Origin: a virus
Direction: 5' to 3' (one strand)
IMG/VR virus record: IMGVR_UViG_3300042504_003161
Location: 1 to 20,728 of that record
DNA: 20,728 nucleotides
A model generated the notes under the pieces. The model saw only the letters and a program-made list of their open reading frames with translations. It did no database searches and was not told the origin of the DNA. Within the stretch, counting starts at the first letter, position 1; the number at the start of each line of letters is the position of its first letter. Positions 329 to 2,373 of the stretch are shown here, in pieces. Both the position numbers and the translations under genes were made by a program.

Positions 329-350
329 ATTATACACGAACCCACTGACA
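329..350 (-). promoter_or_regulatory. Promoter P1 (TGTCAG-N10-TATAAT)
   Basis: On the minus strand TGTCAG occupies 350-345 and TATAAT occupies 334-329, separated by 10 bases. The same arrangement occurs at three other operon starts (912-933, 1720-1741, 2298-2319). No TTGACA lies at the usual -35 distance. The predicted start of transcription is near 322, upstream of the gene at 87-293. Confidence 0.65.
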
Positions 351-398: not shown

Positions 399-414
399 TG
401 TGATAAGCATCACA
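399..414. promoter_or_regulatory. Crp/GlxR-like palindrome, site 1
   Basis: TGTGA-N6-TCACA with both half-sites exact. The full inverted repeat GTGTGAT-AAGC-ATCACAC spans 398-415. It lies upstream of P1: the first T of the site is 49 bases from the outer base of TGTCAG, and its centre is about 84 bases upstream of the predicted transcription start. This matches the consensus bound by Crp-family regulators, including actinobacterial GlxR. Binding is inferred, and a hairpin in RNA is the alternative. Confidence 0.5.
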
Positions 415-433
415 CCAAAATGTCCGATTTGTC

Positions 434-545
434 TGTCAAATCGACACGCCGTAGAATTCACGGGATTTTATAACAATGTCGTAACGACACGCCCGAGTGC
501 GGCAGATATGCGGGCCAGCTTGATCTTGTCAAGCCGACACGCCGT
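434..545. repeat. Three iteron-like repeats TGTC-N5-GACACGCC
   Basis: Three direct copies start at 434, 477 and 527 (spacing 43 and 50 bases). Their N5 parts are AAATC, GTAAC and AAGCC, and copies 1 and 3 continue with GT. A fourth copy with one changed base lies at 1079-1097, and the core GACACGCC occurs inverted at 950-957. The 477 copy contains the dyad TGTCGTAACGACA. The repeats lie in a gap of about 270 bases without a convincing gene. They could be binding sites for a phage repressor or replication protein. Confidence 0.6.
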
Positions 546-560
546 TAATTGAAAAAGATT

Positions 561-686
561 TTATTTTTCTTCAACGTTAAACGTTTTTTCTAAAGCAGAG
601 TTTGCTTTAGTTAAAGCGACAAGCGCATTTTGCAAAGATTGTGCACGTTGTTCTTCAACGTGCTTTTTAAATTCATCTAAATTCAT
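561..686 (-). CDS. Small hypothetical protein, 41 aa
   Basis: The frame runs from ATG at 686 to TAA at 563-561 and encodes 41 residues beginning MNLDEFKKHVEEQRAQ. It has a strong ribosome site (AAGGAG, about 8 bases upstream), and its ATG shares one base with the upstream stop codon (TAATG), so translation is probably coupled. The sequence is charged and helix-prone, with leucines at heptad-like positions (L18, L22, L25, L32), and could form a short coiled coil. There is no cysteine or membrane segment. Function unknown. The overlap and ribosome site are the reason to call it. Confidence 0.6.
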   Translation of the reverse strand: MNLDEFKKHVEEQRAQSLQNALVALTKANSALEKTFNVEEK

Positions 687-856
687 TAGTTAGACTCCTT
701 ATCTAAACAGTTAATACAATTACAATTTTTACTAGAGAATAAAAACTTTAACAACTCTTTACGAGTGTAAGCATCTAAACCATAAGAGGATTTTACTCCG
801 CCGTTATGGTAATCGTGAACGATTGTAGAGAATAGAGTTTCATTTAGTGTAGTCAT
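686..856 (-). CDS. Small hypothetical Cys-containing protein, 56 aa
   Basis: I place the start at the ATG at 856, which has AAAGGTGG just upstream and follows the predicted P2 transcription start (about 905) by 49 nt. A longer frame opening at 934 would begin upstream of that transcript and is rejected. The 56-residue product begins MTTLNETLF and has a C-terminal cysteine cluster (CNCINC, residues 45-50), which could bind a metal. It is the first gene of a two-gene operon and ends in TAATG overlap with the 41-aa gene. I do not recognise the family. Confidence 0.65.
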   Translation of the reverse strand: MTTLNETLFSTIVHDYHNGGVKSSYGLDAYTRKELLKFLFSSKNCNCINCLDKESN

Positions 857-911
857 TTTAGACCACCTTTCTTTTTTTATTAAATAACCTTTATTTAATC
901 TTGATACTAGT

Positions 912-933
912 ATCCTATCATAGACCACTGACA
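912..933 (-). promoter_or_regulatory. Promoter P2 (TGTCAG-N10-TAGGAT)
   Basis: TGTCAG at 933-928 and TAGGAT at 917-912 on the minus strand are separated by the same 10 bases as in P1, P3 and P4. TAGGAT fits the TAnnnT form of a -10 box. A TATGAT at 922-917 is the other candidate, but it breaks the shared spacing. Confidence 0.6.
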
Positions 934-971
934 TTTTGACCCCTTTTTCGGGCGTGTCGCAAAACTATTTT

Positions 972-987
972 TGTGATTTAGGTCATG
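972..987. promoter_or_regulatory. Crp-like site 2, one half degenerate
   Basis: TGTGA-N6-TCATG: the left half is exact and the right half has two changes. It lies 39 bases from the outer base of P2 TGTCAG, exactly the distance seen at P4. The flank GCAAAACTATTTTTGTGAT (959-977) is nearly repeated at 2346-2363, in front of P4, so the two upstream modules appear related. Confidence 0.45.
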
Positions 988-1047
988 TGGATAACTTACG
1001 CTCAGAATTCCAGGGATTTCCACACCTGTGTATAAAGCTGTGGATAA
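986..1047. promoter_or_regulatory. DnaA-box cluster, candidate replication origin
   Basis: TGTGGATAA, the reverse complement of the classic DnaA box TTATCCACA, occurs exactly at 986-994 and 1039-1047. A one-mismatch copy (TGTGTATAA) lies at 1027-1035. All have the same orientation and sit in a non-coding gap (857-1099) that also holds a hairpin and one iteron-like repeat. This could be an origin using host DnaA, or a DnaA-responsive control site. No initiator gene is visible in the window. Confidence 0.5.
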
Positions 1048-1048
1048 C

Positions 1049-1067
1049 GCCCCCAAAAGAAGGGGGC
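1049..1067 (-). terminator. GC-rich hairpin after operon 3, possible terminator
   Basis: GCCCCC (1049-1054) pairs with GGGGGC (1062-1067) across a 7-base loop, 33 bases after the last stop codon of the minus-strand operon at 1681-1100. There is no T-tract on either side, so intrinsic termination is uncertain. Confidence 0.4.
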
Positions 1068-1078
1068 CGATCTGACAA

Positions 1079-1097
1079 AGTCAAATCGACACGCCGT
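1079..1097. repeat. Fourth copy of the TGTC-N5-GACACGCC repeat
   Basis: This copy reads AGTC-AAATC-GACACGCCGT. Sixteen contiguous bases (1080-1095, GTC-AAATC-GACACGCC) plus the trailing GT are identical to the copy at 434-452. It lies between the hairpin at 1049-1067 and the last gene of operon 3. Confidence 0.55.
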
Positions 1098-1099
1098 GT

Positions 1100-1213
1100 T
1101 TAGCGTGTGAGTTCTCTCACATCTTCTTTTAGCCACTCCCACATAGCCCGCACACCGATAACGGCGGGGACTAGTAAGGATAATTGGACTAATGTAGTTA
1201 GTAATCTATTCAT
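1100..1213 (-). CDS. Small membrane peptide, 37 aa
   Basis: ATG at 1213, TAA at 1102-1100, 37 residues beginning MNRLLTTLVQLSLLVPAVIG. Residues 4-21 form one hydrophobic segment followed by a charged tail (WEWLKEDVRELTR), so a single-span membrane protein is likely. The ATG overlaps the preceding stop as ATGA, and AGAGG lies about 9 bases upstream. It is the last gene of operon 3. Its 3' end contains another Crp-like palindrome (1106-1121). Function unknown; small membrane proteins in phage early regions can modify host functions, but nothing here shows that. Confidence 0.55.
   Translation of the reverse strand: MNRLLTTLVQLSLLVPAVIGVRAMWEWLKEDVRELTR
1106..1121. promoter_or_regulatory. Crp/GlxR-like palindrome inside a gene end
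   Basis: TGTGA-N6-TCACA with both halves exact, inside the last codons of the 37-aa gene. A TGTCAG lies 29 bases away (1077-1072 on the minus strand), as at P3, but the expected -10 position reads TTCTTT, so no working promoter is predicted here. It may be a decayed module or an RNA hairpin. Confidence 0.35.
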
Positions 1214-1362
1214 CGGTAGAACCTCTTATAAATCTTATACGCTATTACCGCTAGTGTGGTAATAATAATAGTGTGCCAAGGTAGATAGATAGCCCCTAGG
1301 AAACTATCAAACTCTAATCCGTATTCGTTAGATATAACTAACTCAAATCCGCTTATGGTCAT
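1210..1362 (-). CDS. Small membrane-anchored protein, 50 aa
   Basis: ATG at 1362, TGA at 1212-1210, 50 residues beginning MTISGFELVISNEYG. The first half is soluble and mildly acidic. Residues about 28-44 (LPWHTIIITTLAVIAYK) form a hydrophobic segment ending in a basic tail (KIYKRFYR), which suggests a C-terminal membrane anchor with the tail inside the cell. GGAG lies 8 bases upstream. It overlaps the gene before it by one base (TAATG) and the gene after it by four (ATGA). Family not recognised. Its pairing with a second tiny membrane protein just downstream suggests that the two act together, which is inference. Confidence 0.6.
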   Translation of the reverse strand: MTISGFELVISNEYGLEFDSFLGAIYLPWHTIIITTLAVIAYKIYKRFYR

Positions 1363-1532
1363 TAGATTATCTCCAATTCTTCTAGTTCTTTATCGCCTAG
1401 TTCATCAAGCGAAATTATATCGTGTCCGAAATATTCTTCTTCGGTTTCTTTGTTTTCTGTTTCTAGTTCTTCATCTAGGTGGCGGTATGCGTCCGCTACA
1501 TCTAGTTGGATAGTATCCCATTTAGTCATCAT
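1362..1532 (-). CDS. Small acidic protein, 56 aa
   Basis: The frame starts at tandem ATG codons (1532 and 1529) and ends with TAA at 1364-1362. The 56-residue product begins MMTKWDTIQLDV and is strongly acidic: more than a third of its residues are Asp or Glu, concentrated at 20-33 and 43-54. It is soluble, without cysteine. Very acidic small phage proteins are sometimes DNA mimics or inhibitors of host DNA-binding proteins, but I see no specific motif to support that. It overlaps both neighbours by one base as TAATG, so translation is probably coupled. Confidence 0.6.
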   Translation of the reverse strand: MMTKWDTIQLDVADAYRHLDEELETENKETEEEYFGHDIISLDELGDKELEELEII

Positions 1533-1681
1533 TAGTTTTGTTCTACCTTTCGCATATGTGCTACTACATTTTTAGAAATCTTTTGTAGTTCTGTTAGTGT
1601 TTTATTCATTTCATCTGCGCTAGTAGCGGTGAAGAAACCGAGGAATTGTGCCCCGTCCCATAGTGAGTATGTTATTGTCAT
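1532..1681 (-). CDS. Small hypothetical protein, 49 aa, first gene of operon 3
   Basis: ATG at 1681, TAA at 1534-1532, 49 residues beginning MTITYSLWDGAQFLGFFTATSADEM. AAAAGGA lies about 11 bases upstream of the start, and the predicted P3 start site (about 1713) gives a leader of some 32 nt. The first 20 residues look like two beta strands and the rest like one amphipathic helix (ADEMNKTLTELQKISKNVVAH in substance). No cysteine, no membrane segment. It is the first of four overlapping genes read from P3. Family not recognised. Confidence 0.6.
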   Translation of the reverse strand: MTITYSLWDGAQFLGFFTATSADEMNKTLTELQKISKNVVAHMRKVEQN

Positions 1682-1719
1682 TTTATTTTCTATCCTTTTC
1701 GTTAGTTGTTATAGTTGAT

Positions 1720-1741
1720 ATTGTAGCCTATGTGGCTGACA
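1720..1741 (-). promoter_or_regulatory. Promoter P3 (TGTCAG-N10-TACAAT)
   Basis: TGTCAG at 1741-1736 and TACAAT at 1725-1720 on the minus strand, 10 bases apart as at the other three operons. It precedes the four-gene operon at 1681-1100 with a predicted leader of about 32 nt. Confidence 0.6.
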
Positions 1742-1769
1742 TTACCTAGCATAGGGCTAGGTGTGTCGG

Positions 1770-1785
1770 TGTGAGTTATCTCACA
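1770..1785. promoter_or_regulatory. Crp/GlxR-like palindrome, site 3
   Basis: TGTGA-N6-TCACA, both halves exact, inside a longer inverted repeat GGTGTGAG-TTAT-CTCACACC (1768-1787). It is 29 bases from P3 TGTCAG. It also covers the stop codon of the gene at 1776-1928, so the same bases could form an 8-bp RNA hairpin ending that operon. Confidence 0.5.
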
Positions 1786-1928
1786 CCTAGGGTGTTATGT
1801 GTAGCGTAGTTACCGCCACACATTACGCATAGTGTCCAAGCGGTTACCCTACCGCAACCATTAGAACACGCCACATAGTGGCTAGGTGTATGGTAGTCGT
1901 TACGACTTTCCCAAATACGATTAGTCAT
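1776..1928 (-). CDS. Small zinc-finger-like protein, 50 aa
   Basis: I choose the ATG at 1928 because AAAGGG lies about 9 bases upstream and the previous gene stops at 1930; a longer frame from 1970 would overlap that gene by 41 bases. The 50-residue product begins MTNRIWESRNDYH. It has cysteines at about 21, 25, 33 and 36 (ACSNGCG ... LCVMCGG), a C-x3-C...C-x2-C pattern that could bind one zinc ion. Small zinc proteins of this type often bind nucleic acids or partner proteins, but no family is recognised. It is the second gene of operon 4. Confidence 0.6.
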   Translation of the reverse strand: MTNRIWESRNDYHTPSHYVACSNGCGRVTAWTLCVMCGGNYATHNTLGVR

Positions 1929-1929
1929 A

Positions 1930-2142
1930 TTAGTTACCCTTTCTATTAGAGAGAACCCATTGGCTCTCATTAGGTGATAGATAGCGGTGAGAGATAAGAC
2001 CCTTATCGGCTACCATATATACATAAGCCATACGGCTAATGTAGTTACCATTAGCAAGGCGAAAGATATTCTTATCCTTAGTGTTACTAGAGGACATAGG
2101 GTGAGTAGGTTCTACTACTACATTTACATTTAGTGAGTTCAT
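1930..2142 (-). CDS. Small hypothetical protein, 70 aa, first gene of operon 4
   Basis: ATG at 2142 with a strong AAAGGAG 7 bases upstream; TAA at 1932-1930. The 70-residue product begins MNSLNVNVVVEPTHP. The central part, FRLANGNYISRMAYVYMVADKG (residues 27-48 approximately), looks like a compact strand-and-helix fold, and there is no cysteine or membrane segment. It is read from P4 with an unusually long leader of about 149 nt carrying repeats and a hairpin, so it may be controlled after transcription. Family not recognised. Confidence 0.6.
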   Translation of the reverse strand: MNSLNVNVVVEPTHPMSSSNTKDKNIFRLANGNYISRMAYVYMVADKGLISHRYLSPNESQWVLSNRKGN

Positions 2143-2164
2143 TTAGAACTCCTTTCTTTTATTC

Positions 2165-2181
2165 GATTAGACTTTCTAATC
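2165..2181 (-). other. Perfect hairpin in the operon 4 leader
   Basis: GATTAGA (2165-2171) and TCTAATC (2175-2181) form a 7-bp stem with a 3-base loop. In the minus-strand mRNA it sits just upstream of the AAAGGAG ribosome site. Read on the plus strand it is followed by TTTTT and resembles a terminator, but no plus-strand gene lies before it. Confidence 0.5.
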
Positions 2182-2196
2182 TTTTTGCTGACCTAG

Positions 2197-2262
2197 ATTA
2201 TTTGCTACTTATTTGCTTAGGCTCACCTTTCGGATTATTTGCTAAGGCTCATTAGGCTCACT
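2197..2262 (-). repeat. Short direct repeats in the operon 4 leader
   Basis: GATTATTTGCTA occurs at 2197-2208 and 2233-2244, and AGGCTCA occurs three times between 2217 and 2262, with TTGCTTAGGCTCA and TTGCTAAGGCTCA as the longer matching pair. They lie within the untranslated leader between P4 and the 70-aa gene. The rest of 2143-2300 is AT-rich with no gene. Confidence 0.5.
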
Positions 2263-2297
2263 AGGATTTTTCTTTATTTAATTTTCTTTATATAATA

Positions 2298-2319
2298 ATC
2301 ATAGCAGGGGGGACTGACA
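2298..2319 (-). promoter_or_regulatory. Promoter P4 (TGTCAG-N10-TATGAT)
   Basis: TGTCAG at 2319-2314 and TATGAT at 2303-2298 on the minus strand. The -10 is preceded by TGC, giving an extended -10. The spacing is identical to P1-P3. Predicted start near 2291. Confidence 0.65.
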
Positions 2320-2357
2320 AAATAGGGGGTTACTCGCTAGTATTCGCAAACTATTTT

Positions 2358-2373
2358 TGTGATAAGGCTCACA
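2358..2373. promoter_or_regulatory. Crp/GlxR-like palindrome, site 4
   Basis: TGTGA-N6-TCACA with both halves exact, 39 bases from P4 TGTCAG and centred about 74 bases upstream of the predicted start. Unlike sites 1 and 3, no minus-strand gene precedes it, so a transcription-terminator explanation does not apply here. Confidence 0.5.

Follow-up and report, generated by a model that had tools for sequence, protein, structure and literature searches.

A candidate class of phage promoters pairing a PafBC-type element with helically phased Crp-type sites in uncultured actinobacteriophages

INTRODUCTION

What turns on a block of small phage genes in which four operons each have the same kind of palindrome upstream of the promoter? 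The question is raised by a virus record (IMG/VR IMGVR_UViG_3300042504_003161, positions 1 to 20,728), which is classed as linear and which, at its full length of 20,728 bases, is called the window here. An initial annotation of the sequence had found a site like that of the regulator Crp (TGTGA-N6-TCACA) upstream of each of four minus-strand operons, at distances from a TGTCAG hexamer that differ in steps of exactly 10. It had proposed that a host regulator of the Crp/GlxR type, sensing cAMP or nutrients, or a phage mimic of one, controls early phage genes. We followed these promoters through related phages and candidate hosts, where sequence directly shows the elements, how they are spaced and distributed, and that a probable host encodes both proteins. 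We propose, with a probability of about 0.65, that the four promoters would be driven by two host activators, PafBC and Crp; binding, activation, timing and a trigger by single-stranded DNA (ssDNA) are the steps that we infer.

RESULTS

Four promoters of one layout

Exact copies of TGTGA-N6-TCACA begin at 399, 1770 and 2358 and a weak site begins at 972, where the initial annotation had placed them. Measured to the outer base of the minus-strand TGTCAG (350, 933, 1741 and 2319), the sites at 399, 972, 1770 and 2358 are 49, 39, 29 and 39 bases away, also as described; the gaps given below are one base shorter. All four promoters continue from TGTCAG with exactly 10 bases and then TANNNT (Table 1). 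The site list had missed a fourth exact palindrome, at 1106, which falls in the last codons of a 37-amino-acid open reading frame (ORF; 1100-1213, minus strand). It is 29 bases from a TGTCAG at 1072-1077 that is itself inside a terminator-like hairpin and has no -10 element, and at least three relatives retain such a palindrome without a promoter. The 1106 palindrome is a coding-sequence location and not a promoter site.

The 972 site has two mismatches to the palindrome. Taken alone it is at chance level, with 11 matches of up to two mismatches in the window (exact ones included) versus 12.3 expected, so that the claim that these sites are not due to chance does not extend to it. It is in phase with the others, and a gap of 38-39 is the commonest in its gene family (11 of 26 sites); at one mismatch or fewer, a site is absent from 36 of the family's 59 promoters.

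The promoters recur in related phages

In its ribonucleotide reductase (RNR), the window shares 67% identity with Streptomyces phages. Its gene order, with small genes and a lysozyme-like protein on the minus strand followed by a glycosyltransferase and the reductase on the plus strand, is also that of the left arm of the Streptomyces phage NootNoot (Stanwilliamsviridae), the second gene of the common order being lysozyme-like or a transglycosylase. By reductase and left-arm synteny the window would thus group with the Stanwilliamsviridae. It differs from NootNoot in that the first 25 kb of the latter hold no exact Crp site and have TGTCCY together with a TTG at -35. Longer relatives reach 115 kb, with G+C contents of 0.375 and 0.378 in two of them. 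WhiB, described as an actinophage marker (PMC10202952), was present in 10 of the 17 phage records searched and in NootNoot. The left-arm block on the minus strand probably consists of early genes, judging by position and synteny. Few of the tested small window ORFs matched any family in Pfam or PHROGs, and a tblastn search of phages with a 70-amino-acid ORF led nowhere.

Two sets of relatives were compared. The first, referred to as the RNR set, holds the best 80 of 600 loci and was chosen by the reductase alone and not by motif. The second was selected from viral contigs by a Crp site followed by TGTCAG within 25-55 bases, which gave at least 119 loci and biases it towards sites. Exact Crp sites numbered 90 in the 418.6 kb upstream of the reductase in the RNR set and 1 in the 548.9 kb downstream, while the reversed motif occurred once upstream and never downstream. 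The exact sites of the window are therefore beyond chance, as first claimed. The pattern TGTCAG-N10-TANNNT was similarly confined: within the block it occurs 133 times on the minus strand and never on the plus strand, and downstream it occurs 3 times on both strands.

After removal of 10 duplicates and 1 cut site, 79 distinct exact sites remained. Within 110 bases, 72 of them face a TGTC-N12-TANNNT promoter. The partner is TGTCAG for 61 sites and a TGTC variant for 11, and at least 3 of the 7 with neither are homologues of the 1106 palindrome. Viewed from the promoters, 65 of 152 distinct TGTC[AG]G promoters have an exact Crp site within 110 bases upstream. Of 28 loci whose block extends over 6.5 kb or more, 27 have such promoters and 24 an exact site; a single locus (L249) has neither. 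The 68 gaps of this set are 18 (1), 27-29 (16), 33 (2), 37-39 (21), 43 (1), 47-49 (23), 59 (1) and 70 (3). In the motif-selected loci plus the window, the gaps cluster at 28, 33-34, 38, 48-49 and 59-60, and at least 249 distinct promoters with a -10 are spread over 93 of 120 records.

The number of exact sites per phage record ranges from 1 to 10 (28 records). Two records of 113-115 kb carry 14 and 16 promoters with the TGTCRG element on the minus strand, and another locus (L425) has 11 on one strand with no exact Crp site in 14.7 kb. Three further loci (L228, L239 and L288) have promoters and no exact sites. Among at least 97 loci newly found by the promoter pattern, 46 hold no exact Crp site, many of these loci being short. 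Given these loci, the TGTCRG element appears to be the constant part of the promoter and the Crp site the optional part. Taken together, the window promoters probably belong to a class, so far defined by sequence, that is common to a large group of uncultured actinobacteriophages of freshwater lakes.

We also scanned cellular genomes with the -10 added to the pattern. This gave 44 loci, some recurring in related genomes (enterobacteria, Bifidobacterium breve), whose gaps spread from 27 to 57 with no whole-turn pattern, and the same architecture in cellular genomes was rejected. A 110-kb contig binned as a cyanobacterium (L147) was the only contig of that scan with three matches. It carries three promoters of this type and is taken to be a misbinned phage contig.

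TGTCRG matches the PafBC -26 motif

In the block of the RNR set, TGTCAG and TANNNT are separated by 10 bases in 133 cases, the next most frequent spacings being 5 (28 cases) and 16 (24 cases). The fifth base of the element is A in 133, G in 39, T in 2 and C in 0 cases, and the sixth is G in 133 with 12 others; substitutions at any of the first four positions number at most 17 each. Starting instead from extended -10 words in the block, 103 of 784 have TGTC at that place, compared to 21 for the next word and 3 of 2,169 downstream. A TTG at the -35 place was seen in 23 of the 152 promoters at spacers of 16, 17 and 18 (0, 9 and 14, respectively), with up to 8 at other spacers. We rejected TGTCAG as a -35 box because of the spacing of 10 and the fixed A or G at the fifth base.

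This pattern corresponds to a published one. The consensus of LexA-independent promoters resembling recA P1 is given as tTGTCRgtg, 8 nucleotides and TannnT (PMC5656591), and PafBC acts through this RecA-NDp motif (PMC6789036). PafB is reported to bind the -26 motif and PafC domain 4 of sigma-A, with ssDNA activating PafBC (PMC11804915). If transcription starts 7 bases after the -10, the phage element would lie at about -28 to -23. It resembles mycobacterial PafBC-dependent promoters (RecA-NDp, recA P1) in tTGTCRg, in the spacing of a TTGTCRGTG-like element 8 nucleotides before TAnnnT, in usually having no -35, and in the occurrence of the motif at recA, here that of the probable host. It differs in that the copies are in phage DNA and are often accompanied by a Crp-type site. 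From this base-by-base match, TGTCRG is most likely a PafBC-type -26 element. The initial annotation had used TGTCAG correctly as the anchor for its distances and had overlooked that the hexamer itself matches the PafBC motif.

A different explanation is that a phage-specified factor or a variant sigma element recognizes TGTCRG, which would then resemble the PafBC motif by convergence. NootNoot gives this some footing, as its TGTC occurs 12 bases before the -10 in 6 cases (no other spacing tried gave more than 1), the same position, with a TTG at -35; this position may thus be older than the RG ending, or may not depend on PafBC. We nevertheless consider convergence improbable, since the match to the published motif includes the A/G position and the same motif precedes recA of the probable host. 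A phage sigma factor was rejected as a candidate: neither NootNoot nor any of 17 phage records reached the cut-off for Sigma70_r4, though 4 of the phage records have weak matches below it. No PafB or PafC match was found in phage DNA (see below).

Crp-type sites are phased by whole helical turns

For the phasing analysis, we pooled the motif-selected set, the RNR set and further phage pieces into 216 records with 728 distinct promoters, which yielded 451 site-promoter pairs at one mismatch or fewer and gaps of 15-75. The best period was 10.3 bases with R = 0.71 (n = 451), compared to a largest R of 0.19 in 1,000 random sets. Counting each gap once per family of downstream genes left 183 family-gap pairs, which represent 85 gene families when singletons are counted, with a period of 10.4 and R = 0.61, a value reached by 0 of 1,000 random sets. 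A simple rule was used to call the downstream genes, which were grouped into families as connected components, a procedure that can merge unlike genes. The window distances do differ by 10, as initially stated, but the period across relatives is 10.3-10.4. Non-phased or absent sites in relatives had been named as a finding that would speak against the initial proposal. We found 369 of 451 pairs and 138 of 183 collapsed pairs in phase (25% expected; windows set after seeing the data, with the 10 pairs at gap 47 counted as out of phase), and exact sites are present in 24 of the 28 relatives with 6.5 kb or more of block.

Within one gene family, promoters differ by whole turns, e.g., gaps of 28/38/48/59 or 18/38/48. 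The family of the first window gene (87-293) has 79 promoters, 22 of them without a site, and gaps of 28 (5), 38 (4), 47-49 (43), 59 (1) and 70-71 (5), plus five sites at 33, 34 or 43. Another family of 40 promoters, 10 of them without a site, has gaps of 18 (5), 37-38 (20) and 47 and 49 (5). Three families are always without a site (37 of 37, 10 of 10 and 9 of 9 promoters) and others always have one (e.g., 15 of 15 and 23 of 23), so that the wiring of Crp sites looks gene specific.

Could the phasing reflect chance, or the common ancestry of a few promoters? The sequences are related, the random sets ignore descent and the in-phase windows were chosen with the data in view. Against this, the periodicity survives when pairs are collapsed by gene family (183 pairs, 85 families), several whole-turn gaps occur within a single family, and the reversed motif was found once versus 90 exact sites. 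We regard this explanation as very improbable.

Some sites are out of phase. At gap 34, 10 of 12 promoters have a second, in-phase site (two mismatches or fewer), compared to any second site in 28 of 352 in-phase promoters. At gap 33, 8 of 25 promoters have an in-phase second site and 17 have a DnaA-box-like repeat. Smaller numbers of sites are found at gaps 40, 45 and others. Tandem Crp-type sites at gaps of 34 and 59-60 were seen in five loci (L014, L026, L029, L030 and L043).

These sites share with class I Crp/GlxR promoters a consensus palindrome upstream of the polymerase and positions one helical turn apart (period 10.3-10.4, with half-turn exceptions at gap 33), and by this measure they would be class I-like. 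They differ in being paired with the PafBC-type element and not with a -35. With the start taken to be 7 bases after the -10, the predicted centers are -64.5, -74.5, -85 and -95.5.

A probable host encodes both activators

Aligned along its full length, a tRNA-Asn of one phage (G007) shares 93-95% identity with that of only 4 of 394 members of the taxonomic class (G076, G167, G197 and G207), all with genomes of 1.4-1.5 Mb; the next listed tRNA-Asn matches are at 82%. Phage pieces yielded 29 tRNAs, of which 19 were compared with G076 and 13 matched. Apart from the G007 tRNA-Asn, these matches are 72-93% identical, most over partial length. G076, which is a probable host by a link that rests mainly on this one tRNA of one phage, has a G+C content of 0.478, and 1.34 of its 1.385 Mb were analyzed. 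Its size and composition are reminiscent of "Ca. Nanopelagicales."

G076 encodes PafB (match to PDB 6sj9, E = 2e-44) and PafC (HTH_PafC, PF19187, E = 2e-28). It contains nine TGTC[AG]G-N10-TANNNT matches, and three of them are at DNA repair genes, as at RecA-NDp promoters: recA (Pfam RecA, E = 1e-143) has one of these upstream, another is upstream of a DUF6504 gene with a DnaE-type polymerase gene behind it, and the third is upstream of a DEDD exonuclease gene. The recA and DUF6504 loci both also have LexA-like boxes. One of the six other matches precedes a gene with an MrcB_N domain, the others being in coding or unassigned places. GCGACACGCC, tried as an element common to host and phage, was rejected since it is not enriched in the host (5 versus 5).

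A Crp-family helix-turn-helix (HTH) was found in all 16 genomes tested. Five small genomes near 47-49% G+C share the stretch ASRETVNKALADFA with PDB chain 3d0s. For the Crp of one genome (G057), 3d0s is the best match (E = 7e-77), with 4byy at E = 1e-72, and the 230-amino-acid Crp of G076 has the same recognition stretch as 3d0s. We take 3d0s to be M. tuberculosis CRP and 4byy to be C. glutamicum GlxR. For GlxR, the consensus TGTGA-N6-TCACA and activation of ldhA are reported (PMC7999487). M. tuberculosis CRP is described as having similar affinity for DNA without cAMP (PMC8026907), and its upstream binding goes with activation (PMC4117774).

The regulator envisaged in the initial annotation can now be narrowed. 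Its sites are real, helically phased and associated with promoters, and Crp-type proteins turned up in candidate hosts alone. A phage mimic was rejected: no Crp HTH or cyclic nucleotide-binding domain was detected in 28 phage records (several of them fragments), and tblastn with the Crp of G076, like that with its PafB and PafC, gave no match in 319 phage records (3.2 Mb with overlaps). Sensing of cAMP or nutrients gained no support, as the search for class III adenylate cyclases (other cyclase classes were not tested) came up empty in six small genomes taken to be candidate hosts, in six phage records and in NootNoot.

No exact Crp site was found in any of 10 sampled members of the taxonomic class of 1.5 Mb or less, where the reversed motif occurred twice. 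One-mismatch sites numbered 100 versus 80 for the control in seven small genomes and 72 versus 65 in the five near 47-49% G+C. The shorter word GTGA-N6-TCAC is scarce in G076 (loci L323-L389), with 5 occurrences versus 17. This would be expected if a host protein reads the motif, and avoidance of a motif read by Crp is possible, though only suggestive: P is 0.0005 uncorrected and 0.014 against the same codon phase, in one genome, with the word ranking 5 of 256.

These data bear on two other explanations of the palindrome. The first accepts TGTCRG as a PafBC-type site and has an unrelated phage protein with a preference for TGTGA-N6-TCACA bind the palindrome. The palindrome is indeed not enriched in the probable host, where use by host Crp is thus not visible, and few of the small window genes tested match any family. 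We consider it unlikely, as the domain and tblastn searches of phage records were empty, the palindrome is the GlxR consensus (PMC7999487), candidate hosts carry such a Crp, and the shorter word is scarce in the host. The second has Crp repress, or has the sites act by titration, as decoys that draw host Crp off the genes of the host. Phage records with up to 10 exact sites, versus none in the probable host, would suit titration, and Crp near start sites represses in M. tuberculosis (PMC4117774). Yet the phage sites are upstream of the polymerase footprint, and whole-turn phasing is not expected of a decoy; this explanation seems to us about as improbable as convergence of TGTCRG.

Other features of the window

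The coordinates are collected in Table 1. Beside the 972 promoter, DnaA-box-like repeats at 986-994, 1027-1035 and 1039-1047 (TGTGGATAA twice and TGTGTATAA) may point to a replication origin or a DnaA-controlled promoter, both of which are possible. Repeats with CGACACGCC at 434-452, 527-545, 948-959 and 1079-1097 lie around terminator-like hairpins; CGACACGCC occurs 108 times (both strands) in the blocks of the RNR set and 0 times downstream. At 2531-2560 on the plus strand, TTGACA-18-TATAAT (12 of 12 matches), followed by runs of G, resembles a strong ordinary promoter and diverges from the block.

Table 1. Promoter elements, Crp-type sites and operons of the window
Feature	Position	Strand	Remark
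Operon 1, Crp-type site, exact	399..414	.	Gap 48 to TGTCAG; predicted center about -84.5
Operon 1, PafBC-type -26 element TGTCAG	345..350	-	Pattern match
Operon 1, -10 element TATAAT	329..334	-	10 bases after TGTCAG
Operon 1, first gene, 68 amino acids	87..293	-	No family match; in largest downstream-gene family (79 promoters)
Operon 2, degenerate Crp-type site (2 mismatches)	972..987	.	In phase, gap 38; adjoins DnaA-box-like repeats
Operon 2, PafBC-type -26 element TGTCAG	928..933	-	Pattern match
Operon 2, -10 element TAGGAT	912..917	-	Pattern match
Operon 2, gene (MTTLNETLF...)	686..856	-	Then ORF 561-686
Operon 3, Crp-type site, exact	1770..1785	.	Gap 28; predicted center about -64.5
Operon 3, PafBC-type -26 element TGTCAG	1736..1741	-	Pattern match
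Operon 3, -10 element TACAAT	1720..1725	-	Pattern match
Operon 3	1100..1681	-	ORFs 1532-1681, 1362-1532, 1210-1362 and 37-amino-acid ORF 1100-1213
Operon 4, Crp-type site, exact	2358..2373	.	Gap 38; predicted center about -74.5
Operon 4, PafBC-type -26 element TGTCAG	2314..2319	-	Pattern match
Operon 4, -10 element TATGAT	2298..2303	-	Pattern match
Operon 4	1776..2142	-	ORFs 1930-2142 and 1776-1970
Exact palindrome in coding sequence	1106..1121	.	Not a promoter site

DISCUSSION

We propose the following model for activation by host PafBC and Crp. In these promoters, exactly 10 bases separate TGTCRG from a -10 that is often extended, a -35 is usually lacking, and somewhat under half have an exact Crp palindrome upstream as well, for the most part at whole-turn distances from the polymerase site. 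Host PafBC, after binding ssDNA, would be placed between domain 4 of sigma-A and the -26 element and would then recruit the housekeeping polymerase ("sigma adaptation"). Host Crp of the GlxR type, at about -64.5, -74.5, -85 or -95.5, would contact the C-terminal domain of the polymerase alpha subunit, the two being on the same face of the DNA as in class I Crp promoters. Two host activators would in this way drive a phage block of small, probably early genes, with the left-arm genes coupled to ssDNA and Crp serving as a booster. For the lineage as a whole, we lean slightly towards the view that widespread freshwater actinobacteriophages run this gene block from host PafBC-type promoters with phased host Crp.

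Several observations weigh against activation by host PafBC and Crp. On the phage side, 17 of the 25 gap-33 promoters are half a turn out and have no in-phase second site, 15 of the 17 being near DnaA-box-like repeats. Matches to the -35 are not weaker in promoters with a Crp site (3.10 of 6) than in those without (2.83), and a weak -35 as the cause of Crp sites was not borne out. Class I positions in E. coli are -61.5, -71.5, -82.5 and -92.5, and the predicted centers are about 3 bases off these. The TGTC of NootNoot, the only Streptomyces relative included, reads TGTCCY and comes with a TTG -35, so that it may be something other than a PafBC element. On the host side, 6 of the 19 tRNAs have no G076 match at E = 1e-3, including the tRNA-Asn of two other phage records; as the remaining matches are mostly partial, the host link is only probable. 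TGTCAG-TANNNT is no commoner in G076 at spacing 10 (5) than at spacing 19 (5), and the host evidence therefore lies in which genes carry the motif and not in its count. Lastly, matches to the phage Crp motif at 10 bits or more number 4 in G076, versus 15 and 31 for two permuted motifs. With no excess of its own Crp-like sites, a host Crp regulon is not visible in this genome.

Our searches of the literature found no report linking PafBC or Crp/GlxR to such phage promoters; these searches were limited, and absence from print is not established. Spread over hundreds of natural promoters, the gaps of 18, 28, 38, 48 and 59 amount to a natural experiment on the helical phasing of an upstream activator in Actinobacteria. 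The data also suggest that Crp can still be supplied to phages by a host whose small genome shows few Crp targets. If the model is true, phages of lake bacteria use the DNA damage alarm of the host as a signal for starting transcription, and DNA entry, damage or replication would itself turn on phage genes through that alarm.

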